Shown here in pieces: positions 1 through 6,403 of a stretch of 23,611 nt of DNA. The stretch covers positions 1 to 23,611 of the IMG/VR virus record IMGVR_UViG_3300037961_000748, one strand, 5' to 3'. Origin of the DNA: a virus. Both the position numbers and the translations under genes were made by a program. The stretch's first letter is position 1, and each line of letters opens with the position of its first letter. The notes under the pieces were generated by a model. That model searched no databases. It worked only from the letters and a program-made list of their open reading frames with translations, and was not told the origin of the DNA.

Positions 1-173
1 ATGCGAACTCGTAGCTGTTTACAAGACCACTTCTTGTCGAAATCTGTGGTGTGTCCAACATTGCGTTTTATTTTGCGCCTTATGTTCAAGCACTCTGATA
101 GGTTTTGGTATGGGGTGTACTCAACTCGTTCATCGCCTATCATCAGCAGTAAAACAAAACTAAGTTCAATCAT
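1..173 (-). CDS. Partial gene, short Cys-containing exported-type protein
   Basis: The minus strand opens an ATG at 173, eight bases before the end of the 130-aa gene, and stays open to the window edge (57 codons, stop not reached). The translation begins MIELSFVLLLMIGDERVEYT, then PYQNLSECLNIRRKIKRN and later FDKKWSCKQLRVR. It has a short hydrophobic start, a basic middle and two Cys about 23 residues apart. Resembles small marine phage proteins with a hydrophobic N-terminus and two conserved Cys, and the 73-aa protein one gene upstream. The true C-terminus lies outside. In T7 the terminase genes come next, so they may lie beyond the edge. Confidence 0.7.
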   Translation of the reverse strand, partial: MIELSFVLLLMIGDERVEYTPYQNLSECLNIRRKIKRNVGHTTDFDKKWSCKQLRVR

Positions 174-558
174 GGTTCGTTAGCTTTTCGATATTGTCTT
201 CGATTTTCGTCAGCCGCCGATCATAAAACTCAAGCACTAGCTTTTGCTGTTGATCGTGCGGAGCGTTGCCACTTTCTATATTTTGAGCCAGCTTTTCTAA
301 TTCACTAGCCAGATGCTCAATCATCATGAATTGCTCTGAGTCAGCTGGCAGACTGCCCATTTCTCCACGCGGCCATTTGATGCGAAACTCAGTATTCATA
401 GCCAAGTCTGTTTCCATCAAAATAAGTTTGTTCTCGATGGTGTTGAGCCTTTCGATCACACCAAAGTACGCCCAAGTGCCAAGTGTTGCAGCCGCAATCA
501 ACGCAATCAGATTGCGGATTGGCATCGCTAATTCAGTGTTTTCGTTTAGCTTCGGCAT
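166..558 (-). CDS. Single-pass coiled-coil membrane protein, spanin-like (130 aa)
   Basis: The N-terminal 13 residues are polar, then comes one membrane helix (about 14-34, RNLIALIAAATLGTWAYFG), followed by a long helical ectodomain with heptad pattern (IERLNTIENKLILMETDL). A distinctive conserved-looking block KWPRGEMGSLPADSEQF lies at 61-77. A second helical stretch at 80-130 ends in KIEDNIEKLT. An N-in topology with a periplasmic coiled coil is the layout of inner-membrane spanins (Rz), and T7 has Rz in this part of its map. No outer-membrane lipoprotein partner is recognised, so the role is tentative. The gene is coupled to both neighbours (TGATG upstream, 8-base overlap downstream). Confidence 0.82.
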   Translation of the reverse strand: MPKLNENTELAMPIRNLIALIAAATLGTWAYFGVIERLNTIENKLILMETDLAMNTEFRIKWPRGEMGSLPADSEQFMMIEHLASELEKLAQNIESGNAPHDQQQKLVLEFYDRRLTKIEDNIEKLTNHD

Positions 559-779
559 CAGCTACATTTATCTGTATGAGCGCAATCAACCGGGTAGCAT
601 TGTGGAATCATAAAATAGAACTCGTTGTTGACAGAGTGCGCCCACAATCCATCAGAGATGAGCCACTGGCATTGATCCTCTGTCATAGGCTGCTGCAATG
701 TCACATGGCCGATTGGGTGATTAGTAACGCCATCGTTGCCCCACATACTAATGACAAGAACGAAAAGCGCTTCGTTCAT
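558..779 (-). CDS. Short Cys-containing, possibly exported protein (73 aa)
   Basis: The start is placed at the ATG at 779 because it overlaps the EF-hand stop as ATGA; an in-frame ATG at 794 would add five residues. The N-terminus is hydrophobic (ALFVLVISMWG), like a short signal or anchor. The rest is polar with four Cys (DQCQWLI, PQCYPVDCAHTDKC). It has the same general layout as the partial protein at 1-173 (hydrophobic start, M-x-G, a polar stretch, then Cys residues spaced along the chain), so the two may be relatives. Probably acts in the periplasm or envelope. No lipobox is seen at the N-terminus. The stop shares one base with the next ATG (TGATG). Confidence 0.75.
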   Translation of the reverse strand: MNEALFVLVISMWGNDGVTNHPIGHVTLQQPMTEDQCQWLISDGLWAHSVNNEFYFMIPQCYPVDCAHTDKCS

Positions 780-1090
780 TTGCGTGACATCCAAGCGCTG
801 GTTCCCATATAAGCGCCCACAATACCAGCGCCTGATATGTAAAATAGATTGCTGATGTCAGATAGAGCTGCAACCCGGTCAAGCGGAACAAAGAACATTG
901 CGGCTGTAAAAACGCCCATCGCAATCAAGGTAAACCGCGCCATGCGTAACTGAGCCAGATGCTTCCGCAATTCTGTCTCTGTTTTCTTAATATCTTTTAT
1001 GTGTGACAGCTCTTCATCGCTGACAATGCCATCGCCGTCCTCATCGTAGTCGGCAAACTTGCTTTGTTTTTGTAGCTTTTTTTGTGTCAT
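776..1090 (-). CDS. EF-hand two-pass membrane protein (104 aa)
   Basis: It contains a canonical calcium-binding EF-hand loop at residues 16-27 (DEDGDGIVSDEE): Asp at loop positions 1, 3 and 5, Gly at 6, Val at 8 and Glu at 12. A charged helix (about 30-50) and two membrane helices (about 53-69 and 82-100, the second Gly-rich with FYISGAGIVGAYMGTSAWM) follow. Similar proteins are frequent in marine phages near the lysis region (from memory), with no assigned function. The two-helix layout fits a holin-like protein, and the loop would make it responsive to Ca2+ or another divalent ion; both are inferences. Its start overlaps the preceding stop and its stop overlaps the next start, both as ATGA. 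Confidence 0.85.
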   Translation of the reverse strand: MTQKKLQKQSKFADYDEDGDGIVSDEELSHIKDIKKTETELRKHLAQLRMARFTLIAMGVFTAAMFFVPLDRVAALSDISNLFYISGAGIVGAYMGTSAWMSRK

Positions 1091-1590
1091 AAAATGATCA
1101 CCTCAGCTTGGCTTTTTGCTACAGAAATAAACAAAATGACAAAAAGCGTTACGGCTACAGCTATGATCGCACCGGCGATTGCCGCGCTTTTAATCGTGCT
1201 TTCAAGCTCAGCAGCTTTTCTGGCTTTCTCTTTGGCCGCCGCCTGTGCAGCTTCTTTGGCGGCACGCTCAGCAGCAGTCTTCTTTTGGATGATCTCATTC
1301 CACGCATCCACGCCGAAACGCATCTGAATCATTGTCCGAACTTCTGCCATCATTTCGGCATGGAGCCGATTTTCAATTACAGAGCTGGCAGCATCTTTAA
1401 AGCCATCAAGCGCACCAACTTTTGCATTGGCATTCCGTTTTTGTTGATGCTGCTTGTCTGCTAAAAAAACTTGATCAAGAAAACCGGCAATGTCTTTGAC
1501 ATCATTCGCTGTACCAATGGCGCTCTTCAATCCAGCCACAGCAGATTTTAGCAGCGCAGCTCCAGCCAGCGCCGTGGTGATAGGCTCCAT
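1087..1590 (-). CDS. Membrane-anchored helical protein (167 aa)
   Basis: A predicted C-terminally anchored protein. Residues 1-30 are hydrophobic and Ala/Gly-rich (ALAGAALLKSAVAGLKSAIG), possibly membrane-active. Residues 40-100 are amphipathic helices including AEMMAEVRTMIQMRFGVDAW. Residues 101-130 are a highly charged Ala/Lys/Glu helix. Residues 136-158 are a clear membrane helix (AAIAGAIIAVAVTLFVILFI), followed by a short tail. The start lies 14 bases after the preceding 54-aa gene, and its stop overlaps the EF-hand gene (ATGA). The family is unknown to me. Helix plus tail anchor next to other membrane proteins suggests a role in lysis or in late envelope interaction. Confidence 0.8.
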   Translation of the reverse strand: MEPITTALAGAALLKSAVAGLKSAIGTANDVKDIAGFLDQVFLADKQHQQKRNANAKVGALDGFKDAASSVIENRLHAEMMAEVRTMIQMRFGVDAWNEIIQKKTAAERAAKEAAQAAAKEKARKAAELESTIKSAAIAGAIIAVAVTLFVILFISVAKSQAEVIIL

Positions 1591-1604: not shown

Positions 1605-1769
1605 CTAAAAGCGGTCTGCTAGTAACAGCAGGATGATAGCGGCTGCTTGTCCGATTAGAATATGCTCCACCCGCTTGATTCTTGTGATCGATTCAAGCCA
1701 GCGCTCATCTGTCACCGCGATGTGCTTTTCAAGCTCAACATGAATTGATAGCAGGGTTGGTTTAGCCAT
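1605..1769 (-). CDS. XhlA-like small membrane protein (54 aa)
   Basis: A short gene between the last fibre gene and the 167-aa gene. Reading the minus strand from the ATG at 1769 gives an open frame to TAG at 1605. The protein begins MAKPTLLSIHVELEKHI, continues with a charged helix TDERWLESITRIKRVEHI, and ends with one membrane helix IGQAAAIILLLLADRF. A charged coiled-coil helix followed by a C-terminal membrane segment is the layout of haemolysin XhlA-like phage proteins, which assist lysis. The start overlaps the upstream stop (TGATG). Taken with its position right after the fibre genes, where T7 has the holin gene 17.5, a lysis role is reasonable but unproven. Confidence 0.75.
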   Translation of the reverse strand: MAKPTLLSIHVELEKHIAVTDERWLESITRIKRVEHILIGQAAAIILLLLADRF

Positions 1770-3767: not shown

Positions 3768-4700
3768 TCAACCTACCTTCAAAATGCCGCAGTAAGTGCC
3801 GCGCTTCATCGCACTGTTATCTGAAGCGGTGTTTGGATAAAAAGCATGACTCTCGCCGTTTGCCGCTGCACTGAAAACATCATATGGATTAGATGCTGTA
3901 TCATTTAGATAAGTGCGAAATACTACCTCATCATTCGCTTGCAGACTTTCTATTACACTCAGGAAATGAGCCATTTGACCAATGTCATTATTATTGTCTT
4001 GGTATCTACCATGCGCCGATGCAATAACTGTTTCTGTTCCACCACTGTATTTAGAAATCATAGAACCAGAATCTCTAACAGTTCCATCCTGCCCATCAAC
4101 GCCTAAACAACAATGAAAATAAACTTGATAATACCCAGTCACAGGAACCAAAAAACCAGCCCCTGATTGTACGCCTGAAGTTTTTGCAACATTTGCAGTT
4201 GAAGCGTAATTGTCAAAATCTATGACATCGAATGCTGCACGATTCCATTGCTGTTCTGTAAGATTGTTGTCATCAGCCGACATCGACAGTTGAGCAATTA
4301 CCTGTGCGTTGCCAACTACGCTAGTAAGTGCAGAACCGTTCAACGCTGGCAGTGTTCCTGATGTAGCCAGCTTTGCCATCGTAATAGCATTGTCTGCAAT
4401 CTTTGCCGTAGATACGGAATCATCAACAGGAACAGAGCTTAACTGTGTTAGCCCATTATAAAGCACATAGATGTCATCGCTTGCCGCAACCGTATAGCCT
4501 TGAAGCGTCACCGTAGTACCTGTGGCAGTATAGCTTGTAGTAGGCTCCTGACGCACATTATTAATAAACAGAGATATATCCTCTGGCCCACTGACCGCGT
4601 GTGTAAGCGTTAATGTGCTGCCAGTAGCGCCTGTGAGATCTTGCTTGCTTGGCTGGTTTACAAAGCCAGCAACAGATCCCTGATTTCCGATATAAGGCAT
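3768..4700 (-). CDS. Fibre/tip protein with C1q-like C-terminus (310 aa)
   Basis: A probable receptor-binding or fibre-tip protein. The N-terminus MPYIGNQGSVAGFVNQPSKQ begins a beta module with the hairpin pattern LFINNVRQEPTTSYTATGTT (residues 44-63) used as an adaptor in phage fibres. VSTAKIADNAITMAKLA (about 96-112) follows as a linker. The C-terminal half (about 140-310) looks like a C1q/TNF-type jelly roll, including GFLVPVTGYYQVYFHCCLG and a last strand GTYCGILKVG. AGGTGACACA before the ATG supports the start. The N-terminal module is shared with the gene at 2339-3175, so the two are paralogous there, while the C-terminal halves differ. Confidence 0.85.
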   Translation of the reverse strand: MPYIGNQGSVAGFVNQPSKQDLTGATGSTLTLTHAVSGPEDISLFINNVRQEPTTSYTATGTTVTLQGYTVAASDDIYVLYNGLTQLSSVPVDDSVSTAKIADNAITMAKLATSGTLPALNGSALTSVVGNAQVIAQLSMSADDNNLTEQQWNRAAFDVIDFDNYASTANVAKTSGVQSGAGFLVPVTGYYQVYFHCCLGVDGQDGTVRDSGSMISKYSGGTETVIASAHGRYQDNNNDIGQMAHFLSVIESLQANDEVVFRTYLNDTASNPYDVFSAAANGESHAFYPNTASDNSAMKRGTYCGILKVG

Positions 4701-5053: not shown

Positions 5054-6403
5054 CTATAACGCAATCGACATGGCTATAGAAAAGCCAGCAGTAGCAAAGC
5101 CACTTGTGCTAACGACAGCATCTTCCCACGCGCTGCCATTATAAACTCTCAAAGTTGTGCTAGTTGTGTTGTAGTATAAATCCCCAGCATTCAGCGCATC
5201 ACCGTCATTGTCCTGCGTGGGGTCTGATGATTTTGCACCAAGATAAACATCATCGAAACTATCTGCGCTTGCGGCAGCTTGCTCTGCATAATATTTAGCT
5301 GAGTAAACACCACCAGCAACTGGTGTATTTGTAGCAAACGATCCACCGCCACCAATCGCCCACTGCTTTGCAGAACCTACAGATTGTTGCACACCGATAG
5401 CGTACTCTTTCGCACTAAACTCAGTACCGTCAACACCGTCAGCAGTCTGGTCAACAGCCCATTGTTTTGCCGCACCAGCGCCAGCCGTGTCAGTGACACC
5501 AGTGCCACCAACCGCCCATGCCTTAGATGAATGATCAGATGTAGATGGAACTGCGCCATCAACTTTGACAGCATAGTTTTCTGCCTTTGTAGCTGATGCG
5601 GATGCTTCACTGGCTTTTGTTGTCGCTGTGTCTTTATGACCACTCGCTGTGGTAGCACTCGCAGCCGCATTAGTCGCTGCTTGAGCTGCCGTGACAGCGT
5701 CTACGATTAACGCCCAGTATGTAGTGTTTGTGAGGCTAGTACCTATTGGTGAGGCTTGTAGCGCGATATAGACATTATTGAGCTGCGCTGTAGTCGTGGA
5801 TTTAACAAGATCCCTTGCATCATAAGCACTTGTGGTCACAGTTGTATCTGTGCCTTTGAATACGCCCAGCTCTTGCGATGCAATCAAGTTACCGCTGCCA
5901 TCGAAGCCAAGCACTTTGTTTGCCCGGCTGGTAGCATCAGCGGTAAATTCAGCCGTAGCGATAGTGTTGGTTTGCGATACCTTAAATGTACGATCAAGCT
6001 GTTCTTGCTGTTGCTGTGTGATAAAGGTCAGACGATCTAGCGCAGTCTCATGGCTTTCTGCTGGGAATGGGTCATTTGCAACATAGTCAGTACCTTGTGT
6101 AAGCGTCAGGACGCGCTTGATAACAACTGTCTCACCGTTTGCCGGGCGCTGATCTGTATTGCTAAAATGCGCGTCTGATGCGTTGCCAGTGTTGAATTTG
6201 AATAGAACATTGCCACCGCTGTCGCTGCCAGCCCCGGTCACAACATAATGGGTGTTAAGTGTCTTTGTCGTTTCTGTGCCGGTTGCAGATCTAATGATGA
6301 CCAAAAGATCAGTGTCAGCGAAAATCTTAAAACCATACGCAAAGCTGTGCGCGGTTCCATTTGCCGACAAGCTGGCTTTTGTGGTGGTGCTAGATACTGT
6401 CAT
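5054..6403 (-). CDS. Tail fibre protein, T7-type N-terminus
   Basis: Tail fibre with the T7 gp17-like tail-attachment domain at residues 1-145 (FAYGFKIFADTDLLVIIRSA, then TLNTHYVVTGAG, GETVVIKRVLTLTQGTDYVA and the helix DRLTFITQQQQEQLDRTFKV). An Ala/Thr-rich trimeric shaft follows (about 235-285). Next come degenerate repeats of (S/A)K-x-(W/Y)A at 293, 312, 331, 345 and 369. A beta module at about 384-432 (DVYLGAKSSDPTQDNDGDAL to YNGSAWEDAV) is common in marine phage fibres. It is shorter than T7 gp17 (553 aa) and lacks an obvious receptor-binding tip, ending in the hydrophobic GFSIAMSIAL. The five small genes downstream may supply the tip. The start overlaps the preceding stop (ATGA). Confidence 0.92.
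   Translation of the reverse strand: MTVSSTTTKASLSANGTAHSFAYGFKIFADTDLLVIIRSATGTETTKTLNTHYVVTGAGSDSGGNVLFKFNTGNASDAHFSNTDQRPANGETVVIKRVLTLTQGTDYVANDPFPAESHETALDRLTFITQQQQEQLDRTFKVSQTNTIATAEFTADATSRANKVLGFDGSGNLIASQELGVFKGTDTTVTTSAYDARDLVKSTTTAQLNNVYIALQASPIGTSLTNTTYWALIVDAVTAAQAATNAAASATTASGHKDTATTKASEASASATKAENYAVKVDGAVPSTSDHSSKAWAVGGTGVTDTAGAGAAKQWAVDQTADGVDGTEFSAKEYAIGVQQSVGSAKQWAIGGGGSFATNTPVAGGVYSAKYYAEQAAASADSFDDVYLGAKSSDPTQDNDGDALNAGDLYYNTTSTTLRVYNGSAWEDAVVSTSGFATAGFSIAMSIAL

Follow-up and report, generated by a model that had tools for sequence, protein, structure and literature searches.

The stretch of DNA analysed here (the window) is a 23.6-kb virus record, and all of its evident genes are coded on the minus strand. 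Head-tail genes at the right are followed by tail-fibre genes and then by a series of small genes at the left edge; the window is a podovirus-like late region. The ORF of interest is one of the small genes. The features at the locus are as follows.

776..1090, minus strand: EF-hand/two-TM protein of 104 aa, putative class II-type holin or holin subunit (ORF, conservation and lysis-cassette synteny of relatives)
1010..1045, minus strand: EF-hand loop DEDGDGIVSDEE, aa 16-27 (ligands near-invariant in 72 relatives; profile match to EF-hand structures, E=5e-9)
896..1018, minus strand: EF-hand exit helix running into TM1, aa 25-65 (AlphaFold2 model, one continuous predicted helix)
782..883, minus strand: predicted second helix, aa 70-103, with TM2 and a short cytosolic C-terminus (AlphaFold2 model and positive-inside charge pattern)
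1087..1590, minus strand: upstream partner of 167 aa (cluster c0, phrog_32327-like), helical, with an N-terminal hydrophobic helix and a predicted C-terminal tail anchor
1605..1769, minus strand: protein of 54 aa (cluster c36) that has a C-terminal TM, resembles XhlA and may be an accessory lysis protein
558..794, minus strand: small protein of 78 aa (cluster c41), conserved in the operon, 51% identical to its counterpart in locus L089
166..558, minus strand: protein of 130 aa (phrog_20984) with an N-terminal TM and a coiled region, possible inner-membrane spanin
3..173, minus strand: truncated gene (cluster c28), the last before the window edge, 91% identical to c28 of locus L103

The ORF starts with ATG at 1090, has its stop at 776 and is placed between co-oriented genes. 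It shares 4 nt (1087-1090) with the upstream 167-aa gene and 19 nt with the downstream 78-aa ORF, which begins with TTG. The start is preceded by GAGGTGATCATTTT, directly adjoining the ATG and including the Shine-Dalgarno-like AGGTGA, which is a plausible ribosome-binding site. Comparison with close relatives gives a dN of about 0.08-0.11, and the synonymous sites are saturated; of the changes in the codons of the EF-hand loop, 5-9 are synonymous and 0-1 nonsynonymous. Purifying selection on the gene is strong.

A preliminary description of the ORF, made from the sequence, had proposed a canonical EF-hand followed by a charged helix and two membrane helices, and both parts were confirmed. The 12-residue loop DEDGDGIVSDEE has Asp at position 1, residues of the D/N/S type at positions 3 and 5, Gly at position 6, a hydrophobic residue at position 8 and Glu at position 12; D16, D18, D20, V23, S24 and E27 are its residues at the canonical positions. 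Over all six frames (47,218 residues) the window has no other PROSITE-type EF-hand match, and about 6e-5 strict loops are expected by composition. Among 72 dereplicated relatives, D16 is kept in 71, D18 in 69 (Asn in the other three), D20 in all, G21 in 70 and E27 in 71, and the neighbouring N-terminal positions are freely variable; the pattern of the family is the canonical D-x-D-x-D-G-x-I/V-S/T-x-x-E. A query blind to the EF-hand, made up of the last 82 aa of the CRP-9 protein, gave the loop in 78 of 80 loci among the matches listed, and the other two loci end at a contig end. The C-terminal halves aligned alone are highly divergent. The window protein itself matches Pfam EF-hand_1 with E=0.0045, under the gathering cut-off, and columns 9-35 of the family profile match EF-hand and calmodulin structures at the E value given above. 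A chance match was ruled out by the ligand conservation, the loop-blind query, the composition expectation and the profile match to structures. The hand is single, with none further in the chain. Glu at position 12 of an EF-hand is typical of Ca2+ sites and not of Mg2+ sites, and Ca2+ binding by the protein is predicted from the sequence and profile match.

The charged helix after the loop and the two membrane helices are seen both in the hydropathy profile, with hydrophobic segments at about aa 50-68 and 73-97, and in an AlphaFold2 model computed from an alignment of 60 relatives. The mean pLDDT of the model is 80 overall and 81-93 over aa 31-70. The entry helix of the EF-hand is modelled at aa 11-15 only, with pLDDT 55-72, and the exit helix is confident. 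In 99/102 relatives the charges are distributed such that, by the positive-inside rule, both ends would be cytosolic, and an N-in/C-in topology with a cytosolic EF-hand is therefore the probable one. A hand placed there could respond only to Ca2+ inside the cell, as after a breach of the membrane, and not directly to ambient divalent ions. The structure search with this protein reached a best E of 2.6 in the PDB, which is not significant, and gave nothing with the fold of a known holin. Viral structure neighbours are weak; the second of them, a 'transmembrane protein' of Sinorhizobium phage phiM9, is probably a homologue.

Relatives in viral contigs number at least hundreds, since searches with three query lineages gave very many matches. 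They occur in podoviruses, HMO-2011-type phages and T4-like phages, many of them marine. The named members are CRP-1, CRP-9 and CRP-207 (Roseobacter-group phages), Sinorhizobium phages phiN3, phiM12, phiM7 and phiM19, Melnitz, Stenotrophomonas phage DLP6 and Limnohabitans phage DC31, and in every one the protein is annotated as hypothetical. The DLP6 query revealed a broader superfamily with the arrangement (W/F)KNRRRMAW - TM - short loop - TM, in which some members have the EF-hand and others do not; the core of the superfamily is thus the hairpin, with the EF-hand as an add-on. At least one locus scored as EF-less, L239, has a degenerate loop rather than none. Among PHROGs, phrog_27150 matches the window protein with E=1e-8 and the phiN3 member with 1e-95, and the EF-less core gives weaker matches. 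PHROGs spreads the superfamily over several families without a function, phrog_27150, phrog_22774 and phrog_14936, which are homologous and are linked here into one superfamily and to lysis. No holin family in Pfam, PHROGs or NCBIfam was matched at significance. Membership in PF11351 or in T4 holin families was rejected, as there is no match and the protein has two TMs and PF11351 three. A Motura match overlapping a cell wall hydrolase was also rejected, being weak (E=2) and not aligning. Matches among genome contigs are mostly MAG-binned. A large alphaproteobacterial contig from a SAR116 single cell (L237, 263 kb) has a family member beside a GH24 lysozyme, either as a host clue or as a prophage, and this member hints at alphaproteobacterial hosts.

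The gene order of the window is shared with related phages. In the window-like phages (L001/L089, L119, L134), the 167-aa partner is followed by the EF-hand protein, small genes, a 3TM holin of the PF11351 type and an endolysin. The window keeps this order as far as the truncated gene at 3-173 and ends before the holin. Beyond this last gene, relatives have a 3TM holin and often an endolysin as well, and in L089/L001 the order is c28, GTA_holin_3TM and GH24 lysozyme. As the window ends before any endolysin, the placement in a lysis cassette rests for this phage on its relatives. The 167-aa partner c0 is the commonest neighbour in the family (35/104 representatives). The protein at 1605-1769 has 34-72% identity to c36 members upstream of c0 and the EF-hand gene in L019, L145, L057, L074, L140 and L134, with no Pfam match and no significant PHROG match. 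The protein at 166-558 has a hydrophobic segment at about aa 8-36 and 69-95% identity to c24 members.

Complete lysis cassettes are found in several relatives. In CRP-1 and CRP-9, the EF-hand/two-TM gene is directly followed by an M15-type endolysin and then by a protein that combines a lipobox with a C-terminal TM; the genes abut or share 1 nt. The last-named proteins, CRP-1 gp54 (L407, 4722-5063) and CRP-9 gp70 (L081, 2365-2739), lie directly after the endolysin and are annotated as hypothetical; by their sequence features both look like u-spanins. In DC31 the order is c0, EF-hand/two-TM protein, Rz-like spanin and L-Ala-D-Glu peptidase. EF-less hairpins in L376, L382, L383, L393, L403 and Limnohabitans phage DC33 are followed by an Rz-like spanin and an endolysin of GH108, GH19 or M15 type. 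Endolysin types unrelated to each other are exchanged beside a constant two-TM gene. No PF11351 holin was found in 12 records with cassettes of these kinds, and no T4-type holin (PF11031) in the eight named phage records among them. By gene order, the EF-hairpin or the plain hairpin fills the holin slot of complete lysis cassettes having no other recognisable holin. In DC33 and L403 a small membrane-associated protein is coded upstream of the hairpin and is also a possible lysis partner, which counts against the hairpin as the holin. The hairpin ORF of DC33 (L405, PQ492659.1, 17898-18098) is unannotated. The DC33 record is classed in Inoviridae, yet its 39-kb genome has an endolysin, a spanin and gene sizes of tailed phages.

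A late membrane protein linked to lysis had been suggested in the preliminary description together with a survey of gene neighbourhoods in marine phages, and the cassettes of relatives support this suggestion. The neighbourhoods were counted in 83 dereplicated non-T4 representatives over a span of 2.5 kb, with the 'putative lysozyme' of CRP-207 left out as a seed. An endolysin, spanin or 3TM holin lies within this span in 46/83 representatives, and a hydrolase in 37/83. A peptidoglycan hydrolase lies at a median distance of 834 bp, compared with 2,915 bp when genes are drawn at random from these loci; the lowest of 5,000 such draws was 1,083 bp, and none was as low as the observed value. No recognised lysis gene was found within 2.5 kb in 25 of the 52 non-T4 representatives with full flanks, and these neighbourhoods may in part reflect unrecognised endolysins. 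A cassette with endolysin or spanin, as characteristic of class II holins, is thus present around relatives, in about half of the well-flanked non-T4 representatives. The CRP-207 protein left out (CRP207_gp73, L082, 3292-3873) is a coiled-coil protein with a TM at the N-terminus; it has neither a Pfam nor a hydrolase domain, and the lysozyme annotation is likely wrong.

Class II holins, such as S21 of phage 21 and T7 gp17.5, are the closest known counterparts. Like them, the protein is a small late two-TM hairpin, likely N-in/C-in, and the family adjoins endolysin and spanin genes. In T7 the holin gene comes after the tail-fibre gene, and the order here is similar. Two-TM holins are a known class and usually have 65-95 aa (PMC12283622). 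The EF-less core of the superfamily has about 65-100 aa; the window protein reaches 104 aa through the added N-terminal EF-hand and, unlike the class II holins, has no sequence match to holin families. GTA_holin_3TM (PF11351) shares an operon with the EF-hand/two-TM gene in the window-like relatives but is a separate family with three TMs and no EF-hand, and it is absent from many cassettes with EF-hand or plain two-TM proteins. With calmodulin and similar EF-hand proteins the loop and its flanking residues agree, but here a single hand is joined to a membrane hairpin. For Melnitz no holin was named, and a CsgGF curli pore was proposed as a pinholin analogue (PMC9004378). Both this pore and the present family could supply the membrane step that is missing from the lysis of a marine T4-like phage; CsgG is an outer-membrane-type pore, whereas the family member QZI95058.1 would be the more conventional choice for a holin. 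Searches of open-licence literature turned up no EF-hand holin, in agreement with the earlier statement that no characterised phage protein of this design was known, and an EF-hand-bearing holin seems not to have been described before.

We regard it as an even call that the protein is a class II-type holin or a subunit of a holin complex, coded in a late operon and carrying a cytosolic EF-hand whose exit helix is continuous with TM1. The holin function is suggested by the gene position. Ca2+-dependent triggering is deduced from the anatomy of the protein, and the control of lysis timing or permeability by calcium that the preliminary description put forward is conjectural. In such a system, the N-in/C-in hairpin of two TM helices would sit in the inner membrane. 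At low cytosolic Ca2+ the EF-hand would be empty or weakly loaded with Mg2+, and hairpins would build up harmlessly. When the membrane fails, Ca2+ would enter (seawater contains about 10 mM) and fill the loop, and the EF-hands of adjoining subunits would reorient or pair. Single EF-hands tend to pair up, and a pair formed by two subunits would couple ion binding to oligomerisation. Assembly of hairpins and hole formation would be sped up, and lysis by endolysin and spanin would follow immediately. That such a calcium-gated holin, in which an EF-hand acts mechanically on a pore-forming hairpin and Ca2+ entry triggers or synchronises lysis, is widespread in ocean phages is a tentative proposal, which we hold as possible but doubtful.

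In the window-like phages the EF-hand protein may not be the hole-former, because a 3TM holin (PF11351) is coded in the same operon. Phages with several holins are known, e.g. P1 (PMC9025707). An antiholin or a holin regulator, where the 3TM holin is the hole-former and the EF-hand protein together with the tail-anchored partner at 1087-1590 binds it and delays or synchronises it upon Ca2+, is unlikely in our opinion, and it concerns phages of the window type. Regulation would suit the PF11351-type holin found no further than 2.5 kb away in 27/83 non-T4 representatives. It would also suit the partner c0, found with EF-bearing members only (20/40 EF loci versus 0/12 scored non-EF loci within 2.5 kb; Fisher P=0.0016, with a small sample, kinship ignored and L239 with its degenerate loop among the twelve), and it would suit L103, where two divergent EF-hand/two-TM paralogues (4269-4589 and 5982-6296) flank a 3TM holin gene and could possibly be a holin/antiholin pair. 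As a general role, though, regulation of a 3TM holin is untenable, since 18 representatives have the two-TM protein and an endolysin with no recognised 3TM holin.

A hairpin holin could also carry a purely structural EF-hand, in which the ion would keep the N-terminus stable or favour oligomerisation and changes in calcium would not be sensed. Near-invariant ligands would suit a structural ion equally well, and EF-less members manage without the hand. From general knowledge of EF-hands, Glu at position 12 and a cytosolic site would make constant occupancy improbable at resting bacterial Ca2+, and we consider this explanation quite unlikely. In 21 T4-like representatives, the gene lies beside gp26/gp51 homologues among baseplate genes and before a large protein, which has a GH108 domain and is lysozyme-like in DLP6 but not in others. 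This location, with gp51 on one side and a large protein resembling a hub or tape measure on the other, would fit a membrane protein of the virion or of its assembly, for instance one connected with the tail, baseplate or ejection, that is found near lysis genes by coincidence. The podovirus, siphovirus-type and other cassettes have lysis neighbours in common and not baseplate genes, and a virion role is improbable. The class II-type holin or holin-complex subunit remains the reading we favour.

Holins act as the clocks that time phage lysis, and the question of their trigger is an old one. A holin-like hairpin with a conserved canonical calcium sensor would offer a trigger that can be tested directly. 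If it is calcium-gated, lysis could possibly start early upon a membrane breach, e.g. by a competing phage. The family supplies holin candidates for marine phages with no recognised holin, such as Melnitz, and gives hundreds of 'hypothetical' proteins a candidate function.
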